Below are positions 3,606-53,698 of a stretch of DNA of 64,000 nt, in pieces. Origin of the DNA: Sphingomonas sp. (lineage in GTDB: Bacteria; Pseudomonadota; Alphaproteobacteria; Sphingomonadales; Sphingomonadaceae); the NCBI RefSeq assembly GCF_017745215.1, contig NZ_JAGHZV010000002.1, forward strand, positions 124,001 through 188,000. The letters run 5' to 3'. Every line of letters starts with the position of its first letter. Positions within the stretch are counted from its first letter, which is position 1. The notes under the pieces were generated by a model, which did not search any database, had not been told where the DNA came from, and worked only from the letters and a program-made list of their open reading frames with translations. Both the position numbers and the translations under genes were made by a program.

Positions 3606-4677
3606 AGCGCGCCAAGCCGGTGCCGGCGAGCGGACCCGGCTTTGCCGAGACCTTCGCCACGCTGCCGGTCGCGGTGCTCGTGCTCGATCCCGACGGCCGC
3701 GTCGCGCATGCCAACGCCGCCTGCGAGCTGCTGCTCAACCACAGCGAGACCTCGATGATCGGCCAGCCGTACGACGCGGTGCTGCTGCCGCCCGACGACT
3801 ATGCCGAGCGCCGCGACGGCCATGGCTTCGCCGCGTTCGACACCGAGATCGAAGCCGTGCGCGGCCAGCGCATCCGCGTCGACTTCCTCGAGACGCAGGT
3901 GCCCGACCACCCCGGCTGGCGGATCGTCACGCTCCACCATGCCCCGCACGCCAAGCGGATGAACCAGGGCGAGCGCTCGGCAGGCGCGCGCGCGGCGGTG
4001 GGCGCGGCGGCGATGCTCGCGCACGAGATCAAGAACCCGCTCTCTGGCATCCGCGGCGCGGCGCAGCTGCTCGGCACCGGCGAGACCGTCGACCCGGCGC
4101 TCACCACGCTGATCACCACCGAAGTCGACCGCATCGCCGCGCTGATCGACCGGATGCAGGACTTCACCGACACGCGGCCGCTGAAGCTCGAGCCGACCAA
4201 CGTCTACCCGCTGCTCGACCATGCCCGGCGCGTCGCGCTCGCGGGGTTCGCGCGCGGGATGGTGATCGAGGAACGGTTCGATCCCTCGCTGCCGCCCGTG
4301 CTCGTCGATCCCGATGCCTTCCAGCAGGTGCTGATGAACCTCATCAAGAATGCCGCCGAAGCGCTCGGCGGGCTTGCCCAGCCGCGCATCGTGCTGACGA
4401 CCGCCTATAAGCACGGCATGTCGATGAGCACCGGGGCAGGGCGCCCGCGCCGGCCCCTGCCGATCGAGATCTGCGTGATCGACAACGGCCCCGGCGCGCC
4501 CGAGGACATCGCCGAGCACCTGTTCGAGCCCTTCGTCTCGGGCAAGCCCGAGGGCAAGGGCCTCGGCCTGCCGCTGGTCGAGAAGCTGGTCCGCGACATG
4601 GGCGGGATCGTCCAATATGCCCGCGAGCGGCACCCCGACGTCACCGTCTTCCGCCTGCTCCTCCCGCGAGCGGCGGC

Positions 4678-4681
<4 letters not shown>
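3602..4681 (+). CDS. ntrB: Nitrogen regulation sensor kinase NtrB
   Basis: A soluble histidine kinase of 359 residues that phosphorylates NtrC according to nitrogen status, under PII control. An N-terminal PAS domain (about 12-115, [20 protein letters not shown]) is followed by the phospho-acceptor helix [18 protein letters not shown] with His141, then a HATPase domain with the N-box [10 protein letters not shown] and G-boxes DNGPGAP and GKGLGLPLV. No membrane segments are present. The GTG at 3602 overlaps the dusB stop as GTGA; an ATG at 3581 is an alternative. The stop overlaps ntrC by 4 bases. Confidence 0.93.
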
Positions 4682-6141
<1,460 letters not shown>

Positions 6142-6201: not shown

Positions 6202-8465
6202 ATGGATGCCGTGACCGCTCTGGACGCGACCGCGCCGCCGCCGCGCCGGCGGAGGTTCGCGGTCACGCCCGCGGTAGAGCTCGGCGTGCTCGGCATCACT
6301 GCCGCCACGCTGTTCTCGACCTACAGCTACATGAGCGGGGAGGGTGCGCAGGGCGAACTGCTCAGCCCGGTGCTCGCTGCCTCGCTGCTGCTCGCGAACC
6401 TGCTGCCGGCGGTCATCCTGATCGTGTTGCTGGGCCGCCGGATCGCGCGCCACCGCGCCGCCAAGGCCGCGCTCGCCGGGGGCGGGCGGATGCACGTGCG
6501 GCTGGTGGCGCTGTTCTCGCTCGTCGCCAGCGTGCCGATCATCCTCACGGTGATCGCGGCTTCGGTGCTCTTCCAGTCGGGCGTGCAGCTCTGGGGGTCG
6601 AAGCGTTCGCAGGCGGCGTTCGAATCGACGATCGCGATCGCCAAGGAAGGCCAGAAGGTCGTCACCGATCGCTGGACCGGCGAGGCGCGCACGATGGCCC
6701 GCGACCTGCTGCGTTTCTTCCCCGATCTGCCCCGCCGCTCTCCCGAGCTCGAGCGGCTGCTCCTCGAGCAGACCTACCAGCGCAACCTCTATCAGTCGGT
6801 GCTGTTCGAAGTGGTCGACGGGAAGACGATCGAGCCGCTCTACGCCTATGAGCCTCCGACCGAGCAGGAATTCAGGACACGCGTCACCGGCGAGGTGCTC
6901 AACATCCTCACCGTCAACGGGAAGACCTTCATCAACTTCAACGAGAAGGTGGTTTGGGTGGTGACCCCGGTCGATCGCGGGCGCAACATCTTCCTCTATG
7001 TCGGCACGCCGGTGAACGCCGACTTCCTCGTCCGCCAGACCGATTCGGCGCGCGAGATCCTGAGCGAATATCAGGCGCTGCAGGCACGCGCGCGAACGCT
7101 GCAGATCACCTTCAATGCCGCGCTCTATGGCGTCGCGCTGTTCATCATCGGCCTCGCGATGTGGATCGCGATCATCGTCGCCGACCGGCTCGTCCAGCCC
7201 GTCGACCGGCTGGTGATCGCTTCGCGGCGCGTCTCCGAGGGCGATTTCTCCGCACGCGTGACGCCGCCGGCGAGCGACGACGAGATTGCAACGCTGGGCC
7301 GCGCCTTCAACACCATGACCGAGCGGCTTCAGATCCAGACCAATGCCCTCGTCACCGCCAACGTCCAGCTCGAGAGCCGTCGCGCGCTGATCGAGGCCGT
7401 GATGTCGGGCGTCACCGCGGGCGTCATTTCGATCGATCGCGAACGCACGATACGCCTGATCAACGCCTCGGCCGCCGCGCTGCTGCGCCAGGGCGAGCAG
7501 GATCCGGTCGGTAAGCCCCTGCATGACGTCGCGCCCGAGCTCGACGCGCTGCTCGACAGCGGCGAGACCGAGGCCGTGGTGCAGACGCCCGTCGACGGCG
7601 CCGAGGCGCGCACGCTCGCGGTAAAGGTGACGAGCGGCGAGGACGGACAGGTGCTCACCTTCGACGACATCACCCAGCAGCAGCTCGACCAGCGCCGCGC
7701 CGCCTGGTCCGACGTCGCGCGCCGAATCGCGCACGAGATCAAGAACCCGCTCACCCCGATCCAGCTCGCCGCCGAGCGGCTCCAGCGGCGCTACGGCAAG
7801 AATGAGGACGGCGTCTTCTCGCAGCTCACCAGCACGATCGTGCGCCAGGTGGGCGACCTCCGGCGGATGGTCGACGAATTCTCCTCCTTCGCGCGCATGC
7901 CCAAGCCGCTGTTCCGCGCCGAATCGCTGCTCGACATCGCGCGCCAGTCGATGTTCCTCCACGAAGTCGCGCACCCCGCGATCCGCTTCGCGATGCAGGT
8001 GCCCGACGGGCCGGTGCCGCTGGTCTGCGATCGCCGCCAGCTCGGCCAGGCGCTCACCAACGTCGTCAAGAACGCCGTCGAGGCGATCGAGGCCCGGCCT
8101 GCCAGCCTCGACGAACCGCTGCCCCAGGGCGAAGTGGTCCTGACCCTCGCGCCCGAGGGCGACCGCCGCATCCTGCTCACCGTCGCCGACAACGGCATCG
8201 GCCTGCCCGTCGAGCGCGACCGCATCGCAGAGCCCTATATGACCACGCGCGCCCGCGGCACCGGCCTGGGGCTCGCGATCGTCAAGAAGATCGTCGAGGA
8301 GCATTTCGGCTCGATCGCGTTCGGCGACCGCCCCGGCGGCGGCACGATCGTGACGATCTGCTTCGACGCAGAGCAGCTCGCCGCACTCGCCGGTGCGGGC
8401 GAGAGCCCCGACACCGATGGCGCCGAGCCCCGGCCGGCCGCCCTTACTCGAACCGGACTGAAGGC

Positions 8466-37781: not shown

Positions 37782-38648
37782 TCAGGCGTCGAGCTGGCGC
37801 TCGCCTTCCTCGGCCGTCTCGGGCTCGGTCGCCGCGGCCGGCGCCTCAGGCTCCGCAGCCGCGGCCGGAGCCGGGGCTTCGGCGACAGGAGCCGGAGCCT
37901 CGAACGCTTCCTCGACCGGCGGCTGCTCGGCCGCGCCGAAGTCCGCGCCGCTCATGTAGCGCGCTTCGTTGCCGCCGCGGGTCGCGGCGATCGCGATGGC
38001 TTCGCAATAGAGGCGGATCGCGCGGCTCGCGTCGTCGTTCGCGGGGACCGGGAAGGCGATGCCGTCCGGCGACACGTTCGAATCGAGGATCGCGACGACG
38101 GGGATTCCCAGCGTGTTGGCTTCCTTGATCGCCAGCTCTTCCTTGTTCGCGTCGATCACGAACATGATGTCGGGCACGCCGCCCATGTCGCGGATGCCGC
38201 CCAGCGAGAGCTTGAGCTTGTCCAGTTCGCGGGTGAGGTTCAGCACTTCCTTCTTGGTAAGGCCGTGCGTGTCGCCCGAGAGCTGCTCCTCTAGCGCCTT
38301 GAGGCGCTTGATCGACTGCGAGATCGTCTTCCAGTTGGTGAGCATGCCGCCCAGCCAGCGGTGGTTGACATAGTGCTGGCCCGCGCGCGACGCGGCCTCG
38401 GCGATCGCTTCCTGCGCCTGGCGCTTGGTGCCGACGAACAGCACCTTGCCGCCCGCGGCGACGGTGTCGCTGACGAACTGGAGCGCGCGCGCGAACAGCG
38501 GCACGGTCTGCGACAGGTCGATGATGTGGACGCCGTTGCGGTCGCCGAAGATGTAGGGCTTCATCTTCGGGTTCCAGCGATGGGTCTGGTGACCGAAGTG
38601 CGCGCCCGATTCGAGCAGCTGCTGCATGGTGACGACGGGTGCCGCCAT
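37782..38648 (-). CDS. rpsB: 30S ribosomal protein S2 with acidic C-terminal tail
   Basis: A 288-residue S2. The core ([20 protein letters not shown] ... [13 protein letters not shown] ... [19 protein letters not shown]) ends near residue 230; about 55 extra residues rich in Ala, Pro and Glu follow, not present in E. coli S2 (241 residues). The ATG at 38648 has an AAGGAG site 8 bases upstream. It heads the rpsB-tsf operon. Confidence 0.97.
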
Positions 38649-38880
38649 AGGGATAACTCCTTCCGGTTGTGCCTTTGGGAAGCGGGAATTCCGTGCGCCG
38701 CTCAGCGGCCGGAACACCGGGTTATGATGCTTCCCATGCGGGTTGAGGGCGCGCCGTTAGCGCCGGTCGACGCAAAAGGCAAGAGCCCGTGATGCGGGAT
38801 GTGGCGTGGGGACGACCGCGGTTCAAGGACTGCGAAATCGCGGTGATGGCGGAATATTCGTTTTTTGTTCCGCTTCTGTC
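38649..38880. other. rpsB upstream region, no gene seen
   Basis: Spacer of about 230 bases before the LexA-type promoter. It should contain the rpsB promoter and leader on the minus strand, but I could not identify convincing -35/-10 boxes or a recognised S2 autoregulatory leader. A T-run (TTTTTTG, 38861-38867) is the only low-complexity feature. Confidence 0.4.
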
Positions 38881-38910
38881 TTGACAGTTGGAACATGAAC
38901 GGAACATAAA
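38881..38910 (+). promoter_or_regulatory. Predicted promoter with LexA (SOS) box
   Basis: A consensus -35 TTGACA (38881-38886) and a -10-like CATAAA (38905-38910), 18 bases apart. Between them lies GAAC-N7-GAAC (38891-38905), the reverse complement of the alphaproteobacterial LexA operator GTTC-N7-GTTC. The operator fills the space between the two promoter elements, the ideal place for repression. The following gene starts at 38962. Confidence 0.75.
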
Positions 38911-38961
38911 CGGTCCATCGGCGGACGATCGACGTCTGTTGGATTTGATGGAGCCAGGGCG

Positions 38962-39183
38962 ATGGCGGCGATTGCGGGAACGATGTTCTTCCTCACGGTG
39001 CTGGGCTTCGCGCTCTGGACGATGTTCGCAACGATCCGGCCGAGGCTCGGGCGGATCGCCTTCCTGCTCGGCTATGACTCGGCGATCGGTGCCGAGCTGC
39101 CGCCCAGGCCCCGCGCCGGCGCGCGGAGCGTTCCTACTCCGGCGGCGGGCCAGGGTCGCCCGTCGCTCCGGATTGCCGCCTGA
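38962..39183 (+). CDS. Predicted SOS-controlled single-span membrane protein, 73 residues
   Basis: A short protein: N-terminal membrane segment (about 3-25, IAGTMFFLTVLGFALWTMF), then a basic soluble tail (RPRLGRIAFLLGYDSAIGAE and a Pro/Arg-rich end). A GGAG site lies 8 bases before the ATG. It follows a promoter with an exact LexA box. In Caulobacter the SOS-induced division inhibitors SidA and DidA are likewise small single-span membrane proteins, without wide sequence conservation. A similar role here is inference from promoter and topology only. Its last 50 bases overlap the convergent pssA 3' end. Confidence 0.6.
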   Translation: MAAIAGTMFFLTVLGFALWTMFATIRPRLGRIAFLLGYDSAIGAELPPRPRAGARSVPTPAAGQGRPSLRIAA

Positions 39184-39964
39184 CGCGGCGATAGGCGCGG
39201 ACGCTGAGCGGGATCGTCGCGAGGTAGAGCAGCGAAGCGACCGCGAGCGTCGGCCAGGGCGCCGAGACGATCGCGGCGGCGACCACCACCAGCACCGCGA
39301 CTGCCTCGAAGCGGATGCGCTGGCGGAGGCGAAGCGACGCGGCGGACCAGGTCGCGAAGCTCGAGATCATCAGGATCGCCGTGAAGGCGATCCACGGCGC
39401 GACGAGCAGCGGATCGCGGAACTCGGGCCGGCCGGTCCAGATCCAGAAGTAGATCGGCGTCATCGCGGTCAGCGCGCCGAGCGGTGCGGGAACTCCGGTG
39501 AGGAAGCCCGCCGACTTGTGCGGCTGGTGATCGAGGTCGATCTGGGCGTTGAAGCGCGCGAGGCGGAGCGCGCAGAATAGCGCATGGACGAGCGCAAGCA
39601 GCCAGCCGAGCCGCGGCACGCTCTCGAGCGACCAGAGGTAGAGCACCATCGCGGGGGCCACGCCGAAGGCGATCGCGTCGGACAGGCTGTCCAGCTCGGC
39701 GCCGAAGCGGCTCTCGCCGTGCATCATCCGCGCGATGCGGCCGTCGATCCCGTCGAGCACGCCGGCGATGAGGATCATCAGCACCGCGGTCTGCCACTCG
39801 CCGGCGATGGCGAAGCGGATCGCGGTGAGCCCGGCGCAGAGCGCGAGCGCGGTCACGAGGTTGGGCGCGATCGCGCGCAGCGGGATCCCGCGCTCGCCGC
39901 GGCGCCTGAACCGGCGGCGGCGGTCGACAGGGCTTGGGCGTCTCATCGAGGTCGTCTCACCCAA
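39134..39964 (-). CDS. pssA: CDP-diacylglycerol-serine phosphatidyltransferase
   Basis: A 276-residue polytopic membrane enzyme that joins CDP-diacylglycerol and serine into phosphatidylserine. The CDP-alcohol phosphotransferase motif is DGIDGRIARMMHGESRFGAE followed by LDSLSD near residues 70-95. A basic N-terminus (RRRRFRRRGER) precedes about eight spans. It starts 18 bases after psd, giving a psd-pssA pair for phosphatidylethanolamine synthesis. Confidence 0.93.
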   Translation of the reverse strand: MGETTSMRRPSPVDRRRRFRRRGERGIPLRAIAPNLVTALALCAGLTAIRFAIAGEWQTAVLMILIAGVLDGIDGRIARMMHGESRFGAELDSLSDAIAFGVAPAMVLYLWSLESVPRLGWLLALVHALFCALRLARFNAQIDLDHQPHKSAGFLTGVPAPLGALTAMTPIYFWIWTGRPEFRDPLLVAPWIAFTAILMISSFATWSAASLRLRQRIRFEAVAVLVVVAAAIVSAPWPTLAVASLLYLATIPLSVRAYRRVRRQSGATGDPGPPPE

Positions 39965-51366: not shown

Positions 51367-51381
51367 GTTCCCTAACTGTTC
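51367..51381 (+). promoter_or_regulatory. LexA (SOS) box at uvrD
   Basis: An exact GTTC-CCTAACT-GTTC, the alphaproteobacterial LexA operator. It ends 4 bases before the uvrD ATG (51386), so it covers the position where a promoter for a leaderless or near-leaderless transcript would lie. No Shine-Dalgarno sequence is visible between the box and the ATG. Confidence 0.65.
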
Positions 51382-51385
51382 GCAG

Positions 51386-53698
51386 ATGTCCGAGCCCGAA
51401 GTCCCCGTCTCCGACGCCCCCTATCTCCAGGGCCTCAACGCCCCCCAGCGCGACGCCGTGCTCACCGTCGACGGCCCGGTGCTCGTCCTCGCCGGCGCCG
51501 GCACGGGCAAGACCGCCGCGCTCACCGCGCGCCTCGCCCACCTGCTGTGGACGCGCCGCGCCTATCCGAGCGAGATCCTAGCGGTCACGTTCACCAACAA
51601 GGCCGCGCGCGAGATGCGCGAGCGCGTCGGTCGGCTCGTCGGCGATGCGGTGGAAGGCATGCCCTGGCTCGGCACCTTCCACGCGATCGGCGCCAAGATG
51701 CTCCGCCGCCATGCCGAGCTCGTCGGGCTGCAGTCGAACTTCACCATACTCGACACCGACGACCAGCTGCGGCTGCTCAAGCAGGTGATCACCGCCGCCG
51801 ACCTCGACGAGAAGCGCTGGCCCGCGCGCCAGCTGGGCGGCCTCATCGACGGCTGGAAGAACAAGGGCCAGACTCCCGCCGACCTCGACGCCGGCGACAA
51901 TGAGAGCTTCGCCAACGGCAAGGGCCGCGCGCTCTACGCGGCCTATCAGGAGCGACTGAAGGCGCTCAACGCCTGCGACTTCGGCGACCTTCTCCTCCAT
52001 GTCCTCACGATCCTGAAGGGCAATCGCGACGTCCTCCAGACCTACCAGCAGCGCTTCCGGTACATCATGGTGGACGAGTATCAGGACACCAACAGCGTCC
52101 AGTATCTCTGGCTCCGCCTGCTCGCGCAGGAGCGCAAGAACATCTGCTGCGTCGGCGACGACGACCAGTCGATCTACTCGTGGCGCGGCGCGCAGGTGGA
52201 GAATATCCTCAAGTTCGAGAAGGACTTCCCCGGCGCCAAGGTGATCCGGCTCGAGCAGAATTACCGCTCGACCCCGCACATCCTCGCCGCCGCCTCTGGG
52301 GTGATCGCCAACAACGCCGGTCGGCTCGGCAAGACGCTGTGGACCCAGCACGACCGGGGTGAGAAGGTCCGCGTGCTCGGCGTGTGGGACGGCCCCGAGG
52401 AAGCGCGTCGCGTCGGCGAGGAGATCGAGGGACTCCAGCGCGGCGGGATGAAGCTCGACAGGTTCGCGATCCTCGTGCGCGCGCAGCACCAGACGCGCGA
52501 GTTCGAGGACCGGTTCATCGCGATCGGCCTGCCCTATCGCATCGTCGGGGGCTTCCGCTTCTACGAGCGTCAGGAGATCCGCGATGCGCTCGCCTATCTC
52601 CGCGTCGTCGCCCAGCCGGCGGACGACCTCGCCTTCGAGCGGATCGTCAACGTCCCCAAGCGCGGGCTCGGCGACAAGGCGCTGGCGAAGGTCCACCAGC
52701 TTGCGCGCGCCGAGGGCGTGCCGCTCACCACCGCGAGCGCGCGCATCCTCGACACCGACGAGCTGACGCCCCAGGCGCGGCGTTCGCTCGGCAACCTCGT
52801 GATCGACATCGCGCGCTGGCGCGACATGGGCGAGAACCTCCCCCATCCCGAGCTCGCGCGCCAGATCCTCGACGAGAGCGGCTATACCGCGATGTGGCAG
52901 GCCGATCGCACCGCTGAGGCCGCGGGCCGGCTCGAGAACCTCAGCGAACTCGTCCGCGCAATGGAGGAATATGAGACGCTCGGCGCGTTCCTCGAGCACG
53001 TCAGCCTGGTGATGGACAACGACGCCAACGCCGACGAGCCCAAGGTGACGATCATGACGATCCACGCCGCCAAGGGGCTGGAGTTCGACACGGTGTTCCT
53101 AGCGGGATGGGAGGAAGGCATCTTCCCCTCGCAGCGTGCGCTCGACGAGGGCGGACTCGCGAGCCTCGAGGAGGAGCGTCGCCTCGCCTATGTCGCGATC
53201 ACTCGCGCGCGGCGGCAGGCGGTGATCCTCCACGCCGCCAACCGGCGCATCTACGGGCAATGGACCTCGTCGCTCCCCTCGCGCTTCATTGCCGAATTGC
53301 CGGGCGCACACATCGAGGAAGAGTCGACGATGTCGGGCGGCGAGAGCCTGTGGCGCGCGAACTGGTCCGAACGGGCGGACCCGTTCGCGGACGTGTCGCG
53401 CGGAACGGGCCGCGGCCCGGGCTGGCAACGCGCGGCGGGAGTGGACCTGAGCAACCCGGGCGGCGGCTATACGGCGCGGACCTTCTCGCGCGAGCCGGCG
53501 CGAGTGCTGGAGAGCCGCGCGAGTGCGGTGAGCTTCGGCGCCAAGCCGCGGAGCGACCTGTCGCTCGGCATGCGCGTGTTCCACCAGAAGTTCGGCTATG
53601 GCGAGATCGTCGAGATCGAAGGCAACAAGCTGGAGATCGAGTTCGAGACGGCCGGGCGGAAGCGGGTGATGGACAGTTTTGTGACGGTGGAGACTTAG
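51386..53698 (+). CDS. uvrD: UvrD/PcrA-type DNA helicase
   Basis: A 770-residue superfamily 1A 3'-5' helicase for nucleotide excision and mismatch repair. Motifs in order: QRDAVLTVDG (Q motif), VLAGAGTGKTAALTARLAHL (I), AVTFTNKAAREMRERV (Ia), IMVDEYQDTNSVQY (II), VGDDDQSIYSWRGA (III), LEQNYRS (IV), VTIMTIHAAKGLEFDTVFLA (V) and EERRLAYVAITRARR (VI). The C-terminal tail (about 695-770) is a Tudor-like RNA-polymerase-contact module (GMRVFHQKFGYGEIVEIEGN). The ATG at 51386 is used; a LexA box lies just upstream. Confidence 0.97.
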   Translation: MSEPEVPVSDAPYLQGLNAPQRDAVLTVDGPVLVLAGAGTGKTAALTARLAHLLWTRRAYPSEILAVTFTNKAAREMRERVGRLVGDAVEGMPWLGTFHAIGAKMLRRHAELVGLQSNFTILDTDDQLRLLKQVITAADLDEKRWPARQLGGLIDGWKNKGQTPADLDAGDNESFANGKGRALYAAYQERLKALNACDFGDLLLHVLTILKGNRDVLQTYQQRFRYIMVDEYQDTNSVQYLWLRLLAQERKNICCVGDDDQSIYSWRGAQVENILKFEKDFPGAKVIRLEQNYRSTPHILAAASGVIANNAGRLGKTLWTQHDRGEKVRVLGVWDGPEEARRVGEEIEGLQRGGMKLDRFAILVRAQHQTREFEDRFIAIGLPYRIVGGFRFYERQEIRDALAYLRVVAQPADDLAFERIVNVPKRGLGDKALAKVHQLARAEGVPLTTASARILDTDELTPQARRSLGNLVIDIARWRDMGENLPHPELARQILDESGYTAMWQADRTAEAAGRLENLSELVRAMEEYETLGAFLEHVSLVMDNDANADEPKVTIMTIHAAKGLEFDTVFLAGWEEGIFPSQRALDEGGLASLEEERRLAYVAITRARRQAVILHAANRRIYGQWTSSLPSRFIAELPGAHIEEESTMSGGESLWRANWSERADPFADVSRGTGRGPGWQRAAGVDLSNPGGGYTARTFSREPARVLESRASAVSFGAKPRSDLSLGMRVFHQKFGYGEIVEIEGNKLEIEFETAGRKRVMDSFVTVET

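Follow-up and report, generated by a model that had tools for sequence, protein, structure and literature searches.

Layout of the locus

The window, i.e., the whole stretch of DNA that was analyzed, comprises 64,000 nt of Sphingomonas sp. (GCF_017745215.1, contig NZ_JAGHZV010000002.1, positions 124,001–188,000 of the forward strand). Read rightwards, the locus consists of rpsB on the reverse strand, a TTGACA hexamer, an exact GAAC-N7-GAAC box, a CATAAA hexamer, a 73-codon frame on the forward strand, and a pssA-like gene on the reverse strand (Table 1). The small gene and the pssA-like gene overlap by 50 bases at their 3′ ends (39134–39183). An earlier reading made from the letters alone (hereafter the sequence-only reading) had placed an exact box between TTGACA and CATAAA, and both its coordinates and its sequence were borne out. 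The same reading had counted GTTC-N7-GTCT at 38867–38881 as a site with one mismatch, but by our count it has two. On the 3′ side of the promoter, at approximately 38912–38931 of the window and also in relatives, there is a weakly conserved element, G.tCa.aa.g.G..ca.gGaac, about 22–43 bases past the start of the box, where further GTTC/GAAC half-sites occur.

Table 1. Features of the small-gene locus, and the second exact box of the window (window coordinates).
Feature	Position	Strand	Details
rpsB, ribosomal protein S2, divergent upstream neighbor	37782–38645	−	PF00318, E 1.7e-93
LexA-like site, weaker, half-conserved	38856–38870	−	GAACAAAAAACGAAT, 1 mismatch
−35-like element	38881–38886	+	TTGACA
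Exact LexA box	38891–38905	+	GAACATGAACGGAAC, GAAC-N7-GAAC
LexA-like site	38897–38911		1 mismatch
−10-like element	38905–38910	+	CATAAA; one C common with the box; spacer to TTGACA 18 bases
Gene of the 73-residue protein (P0001)	38962–39183	+	ATG 38962, TGA 39183
Predicted helix, residues 2–37	38965–39072	+	AlphaFold2 and hydropathy; span approximately residues 4–24
C-terminal Arg-Ile-Ala-Ala, predicted protease signal	39169–39180	+	Ala end conserved
pssA-like CDP-alcohol phosphatidyltransferase gene, convergent	39134–39964	−	PF01066 and PF08009
Second exact box (no further ones in the window)	51367–51381	−	4 bases 5′ of the uvrD/pcrA-like start
uvrD/pcrA-like helicase gene	51386–53698		Likely start 51386; TIGR01073, 783 bits, curated cut-off of 911 not reached

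Conservation of the gene, its box and its surroundings

The first protein search returned seven relatives besides the window's own protein. A profile of these eight sequences matched 62 of 201 genomes of the genus at E 0.001. A profile of 67 sequences, with the threshold at E 0.01, matched 194 of the 201, including 178 of the 180 of good quality, and nearly all of the genus genomes searched thus carry the small gene; these hit counts are mutually dependent, because the profile was enlarged stepwise from its own hits (A1, A2, and A3). Seven of the 201 genomes gave no match to the 67-sequence profile at E 0.01, and one of these (G205) carries a boxed transmembrane (TM) ORF. Across the family, matches at E 0.001 came from 50 of 159 genomes, spread over 32 of 96 genera. 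The order-wide search with profile A2 found 18 of 147 genomes, and the sole match outside the family (G056) was judged to be false.

Homologous loci were compared in a set of 108. This set excludes L043, whose protein and box are identical to those of L013; L057, which lacks rpsB, pssA, and the box, and whose genome (G154) has a better hit; and L078 and L082, which both lack all three. It replaced the first-look loci L002–L012, among which L006 and L008–L010 were weak hits distant from rpsB. Two of the 62 genome hits (G002 and G030) lie outside the 108 loci, and the box, rpsB, and pssA are present in the corresponding first-look loci, L007 and L011. A script assigned the start codons; those of L119 and L129 were set by hand because the automatic starts were too far upstream.

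An exact box was found within 220 bases upstream of the gene in 104 of the 108 loci, and a box with one mismatch in the remaining four. The 220-base stretches preceding the ORF contained 135 exact boxes (23,760 bases in total), whereas the rest of the same strand of these loci contained 5 (324,063 bases), a 368-fold difference in density. At least two exact boxes preceded the gene in 31 loci. The promoter is conserved along with the box: TTGAC occurs 2–7 bases 5′ of an exact box in 100 of the 108 loci, and the ATA that follows the box carries 1.3–1.8 bits per base, compared with an average of 0.15 in the flanks, in an alignment of 85 loci that was anchored on the box, so that the box bases themselves are no evidence there. 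The combined pattern TTGAC-N4-GAAC-N7-GAACAT was found at 63 places in 61 of the 201 genus genomes, and the reversed control gave no tabulated match. The window falls outside these 61 because it has one more base in its spacing. Of the 63 places, at least two (G121:C4 and G096:C109) are away from the small gene.

The neighborhood is also shared. With tblastn, rpsB was present in 102 of the 108 loci and pssA in 100, and in 99 of those 100 the 3′ ends of pssA and the small gene overlap. A systematic sample of 20 weaker hits in the genus had the box, rpsB, and pssA in every case. The check that the sequence-only reading had proposed, namely whether box and reading frame recur in relatives, thus came out in its favor.

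Position was then used in place of homology. A search of the order with the rpsB model matched 66 of 70 genomes, and 20 of the loci were read. Eight of these came from family genomes in which the order-wide search with profile A2 had found no match. In seven of the eight, a TM ORF preceded by an exact box lies between rpsB and pssA; these seven ORFs encode 68–111 residues, and all end in Ala, six of them in AA. In the eighth (L174), there was no small gene beside rpsB. The remaining 12 loci, a sample of the 53 genomes of other families covered by the rpsB search, contained no boxed TM ORF between rpsB and the next gene. Based on seven of eight family loci vs. none of 12 outgroup loci, the gene appears to have arisen within the Sphingomonas family (Sphingomonadaceae). 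The gene had been suspected of being lineage-specific and hard to find by homology, and the same counts agree with both suspicions. Place and promoter can therefore locate such genes where a sequence search fails. A chance origin of the box was rejected on the basis of its 368-fold density and the boxed ORFs in the seven genomes missed by the profile. As a separate observation, dnaE lies upstream of rpsB in 11 of the 12 other-family loci (L176, L177, and L179–L187) but was not found next to rpsB in this family; this rearrangement goes together with the small gene.

LexA boxes elsewhere in the genome

By itself, the motif is near chance level in this genome and is not clearly enriched: with up to one mismatch, the window contains 35 matches vs. 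39.8 expected, and the genome (4.16 Mb) contains 70 exact boxes vs. 43 for the reversed-pattern control. We therefore rejected the motif alone as evidence, and the significance of the box at the small gene derives from its position and conservation.

An exact box lies 18 bases 5′ of the start of lexA (L105). Twenty regions, covering part of the 70 exact boxes, were fetched to read their contexts; here, exact boxes precede script-chosen starts by 7 bases at uvrA, 35 bases at recA, 15 bases at a rarA-like gene, 128 bases at an rmuC-like gene, and 25 bases at an imuA-like gene whose model score is below the cut-off. Several other exact boxes in the fetched regions are inside coding frames or 5′ of unrelated genes. 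The published Caulobacter LexA consensus, as it appears in an excerpt of its source, is the same motif on the opposite strand (PMC12700426). Two marks of an alphaproteobacterial SOS regulon are therefore present: the same operator stands at lexA and at core SOS genes, and GAAC-N7-GAAC lies in the promoter of the small gene and is conserved in its relatives. An exact, conserved box in this position implies that LexA would silence the gene until DNA damage occurs, and we consider LexA control of the small gene highly probable. The proposal of such control in the sequence-only reading gains support from the conserved box and from the same box at lexA, recA, and uvrA.

Two further exact boxes were noted in the fetched regions. 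One (L085:1536–1550; G000:C2, 8535–8549) lies 71 bases 5′ of an ORF (1622–2800) for a CBASS cGAMP synthase, which matches NF041078 with 251 bits, above the cut-off, as well as PF21654 and PF21713; this is possibly an SOS-controlled phage-defense operon. The other (L088:1520–1534; G000:C7:79319–79333) lies 197 bases 5′ of an mraZ-like gene, which belongs, with a score below the cut-off, to a family of regulators of the division/cell-wall cluster.

The protein and its possible role in the SOS response

In 26 non-overlapping pairs of relatives, substitutions at codon positions 1, 2, and 3 numbered 145, 77, and 329, counted over codons 2–45, which lie outside the usual overlap with pssA. This bias indicates that the frame is selected as a protein, and a spurious ORF was rejected on the same grounds. 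AlphaFold2 modeled a single helix with block-mean pLDDT values of 95, 98, 87, and 70 and a disordered tail (mean 73.0, pTM 0.44), and a membrane span was predicted from hydropathy in the 108 proteins. The protein is thus predicted to span the membrane once, as had been proposed from its sequence. Across the 108 proteins, the median net charge is 0 on the N-terminal side of the span and +7 on the C-terminal side, and the tail is more basic than the N-terminal flank in 107 of them. Under the positive-inside rule for the orientation of membrane proteins, a neutral N-flank and a basic tail predict an N-out/C-in orientation.

P0001 could be assigned to no known family: the best matches in Pfam (PF02285, E 0.036) and NCBIfam (NF005628, E 0.15) were only noise. 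In the PDB, one cytochrome trimer matched profile positions 22–40 weakly (E 0.0036), and this too was judged to be noise. Among the matches listed with a source name, the relatives are labeled “uncharacterized” or “hypothetical,” apart from a single stray label, “Glutaminase” (P0110).

The last residue is Ala in all 108 proteins, and the last two are AA in 103. Of the 100 loci with pssA, 99 have this end within pssA codons (overlap of 20–170 bases, usually approximately 40–80), so that part of its conservation may belong to pssA. Against this, the eight loci without a pssA hit all have the AA end, although close relatives are among them (L074/L136 and L075/L076). The degradation signal of CtrA is C-terminal and ends in two alanines. 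In a published table of ClpX signals, C-terminal poly-Ala is entered as a signal in Bacillus, and the CtrA signal, DPNEQVNAA, is called N-terminal (PMC8138137). By analogy, we predict that the alanine end is a protease signal and that the protein is short-lived.

Five known proteins offer the closest comparisons. TisB of Escherichia coli is a small, hydrophobic, SOS-controlled protein subject to antisense RNA control, and SulA of the same species is a soluble inhibitor of FtsZ. Excerpts of one study describe Caulobacter SidA as an SOS-induced, single-span inner-membrane protein of 29 aa that acts on FtsW, and DidA as a protein of 71 aa that is SOS-independent, activated by DriD, and acts via the periplasmic SPOR domain of FtsN (PMC4211646). 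The sequence-only reading had cited both as SOS inhibitors, which is right for SidA and wrong for DidA. YneA of Bacillus subtilis, again according to an excerpt, has a single TM segment, is induced by the SOS response, binds FtsW, and is rapidly degraded (PMC13396833).

The sphingomonad protein resembles SidA in that it is, by prediction from the box and the one helix, a LexA-controlled, small, single-span membrane protein of an alphaproteobacterium. It differs in its length of 73 residues, its long basic tail with a predicted C-in orientation, and its gene position beside rpsB and pssA and divergent from rpsB. With DidA it shares its length and single helix; however, its gene has a LexA box, which argues for SOS control, and its tail is predicted to be cytoplasmic, whereas the excerpt on DidA describes another orientation. 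YneA is likewise SOS-induced, single-TM, and short-lived, features that are predicted here, but it has an extracellular LysM domain, in contrast to the disordered basic tail of the sphingomonad protein, which gave no LysM match. The likeness to SulA concerns the role and the short life, both of which are proposed here, whereas P0001 is predicted to span the membrane and has no Pfam match. TisB is similar as a small hydrophobic protein with an SOS-type box, but the selected tail of the sphingomonad protein makes it much longer. The product of the small gene would belong with the small SOS-induced membrane effectors, as a variant.

Our leading explanation is a LexA-repressed, short-lived, single-span membrane protein that acts as a brake on division at the septal wall machinery, and we give the brake itself about an even chance. 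The promoter half of this mechanism draws on sequence evidence, and we infer the division half by analogy with SidA, DidA, and YneA. LexA bound between the −35 and −10 elements would block RNA polymerase, and RecA-driven loss of LexA after DNA damage would open the promoter. The product would then enter the membrane, where its helix could dock on the late divisome and stall septation; the precedents of SidA and YneA would make FtsW, FtsI, or FtsN the likeliest targets. The cytoplasmic alanine end might make the protein a substrate of ClpXP or a comparable protease, and once LexA returned, proteolysis would allow division to resume after repair. No match to the SulA domain (PF03846) was found in the window's own genome, in a search whose control matched E. 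coli only. To our knowledge, no gene for an SOS division brake is known in the sphingomonads, and the listings from a search of the open-licence literature contained no description of an SOS division inhibitor in this group.

More tentatively, and with somewhat less than even confidence, the gene may be a family-specific SOS checkpoint that arose independently of SulA, SidA, and YneA and holds the place beside rpsB that dnaE left, with a helix that stops septal synthesis and an alanine end that serves as a Clp timer. If so, fast evolution might have left only the place, the promoter, the helix, and the last residues recognizable. If the product is a division brake, an SOS membrane inhibitor would have been invented independently once more, and this large environmental group of bacteria would offer a checkpoint that can be tested directly.

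The promoter, conservation, and topology would fit equally well an SOS-induced single-span effector that acts elsewhere than on division, for instance on envelope, transport, or signaling proteins during repair, since only the analogy and the absence of SulA point to the divisome. Among small bitopic proteins induced by the SOS response, the two that have been studied best, SidA and YneA, nevertheless act on division according to the excerpts of their sources (PMC4211646, PMC13396833), and we regard such an effector as unlikely. A membrane-depolarizing toxin like TisB, which would slow the cell until repair is done, would account for the LexA box, the small size, and the single hydrophobic helix. 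We consider it improbable: a pore-forming helix would have no need of a 45-residue basic tail that is under selection and has a conserved end, and Rfam gave no match at the locus. A consensus fold of the leader RNA was empty for real and shuffled alignments alike, the alignment being too gappy. A link to phospholipids appears equally improbable. Here, SOS transcription into the convergent pssA, or binding to PssA, would slow membrane growth during repair, as the frequency of the convergent neighbor (100 of 108 loci) and of the 3′ overlap (99 of those) would suggest; however, eight of the 108 loci have the gene, with its box in all eight, but no nearby pssA hit, and the overlap is usually merely some 40–80 bases at the 3′ ends.

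The last alternative involves the rpsB–dnaE region; in Caulobacter, sidA lies next to dnaE. In other alphaproteobacterial orders, where 20 loci were read from 72 genomes with rpsB, dnaE lies upstream of rpsB in 16. The small gene lies beside rpsB and pssA rather than beside dnaE, and no box or TM micro-ORF was found within 900 bases upstream of dnaE in the window's own genome. A diverged and moved SidA, i.e., a LexA-controlled micro-ORF that kept the rpsB neighborhood when dnaE left, would accord with that bare dnaE and with the boxed TM micro-ORFs 5′ of dnaE in 3 of the 16 dnaE–rpsB loci, but it is very improbable, given the opposite orientation to rpsB, the approximately twofold length, the basic residues beyond the opposite end of the helix, the lack of visible similarity, and the absence of an intermediate in all 12 outgroup loci of the order. 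Because it differs from SidA in place, orientation, length, and the side of its basic residues, we did not file the sphingomonad protein as SidA, although as a division brake it may work like SidA. Among the loci of the other orders, L158 has a box 5′ of dnaE and no TM micro-ORF, and an exact box with a TM micro-ORF of 33–38 residues lies just 5′ of dnaE in L149 (approximately 4600–4753), L161 (approximately 4450–4607), and L165 (approximately 7029–7162); these three micro-ORFs are probable SidA-like genes.
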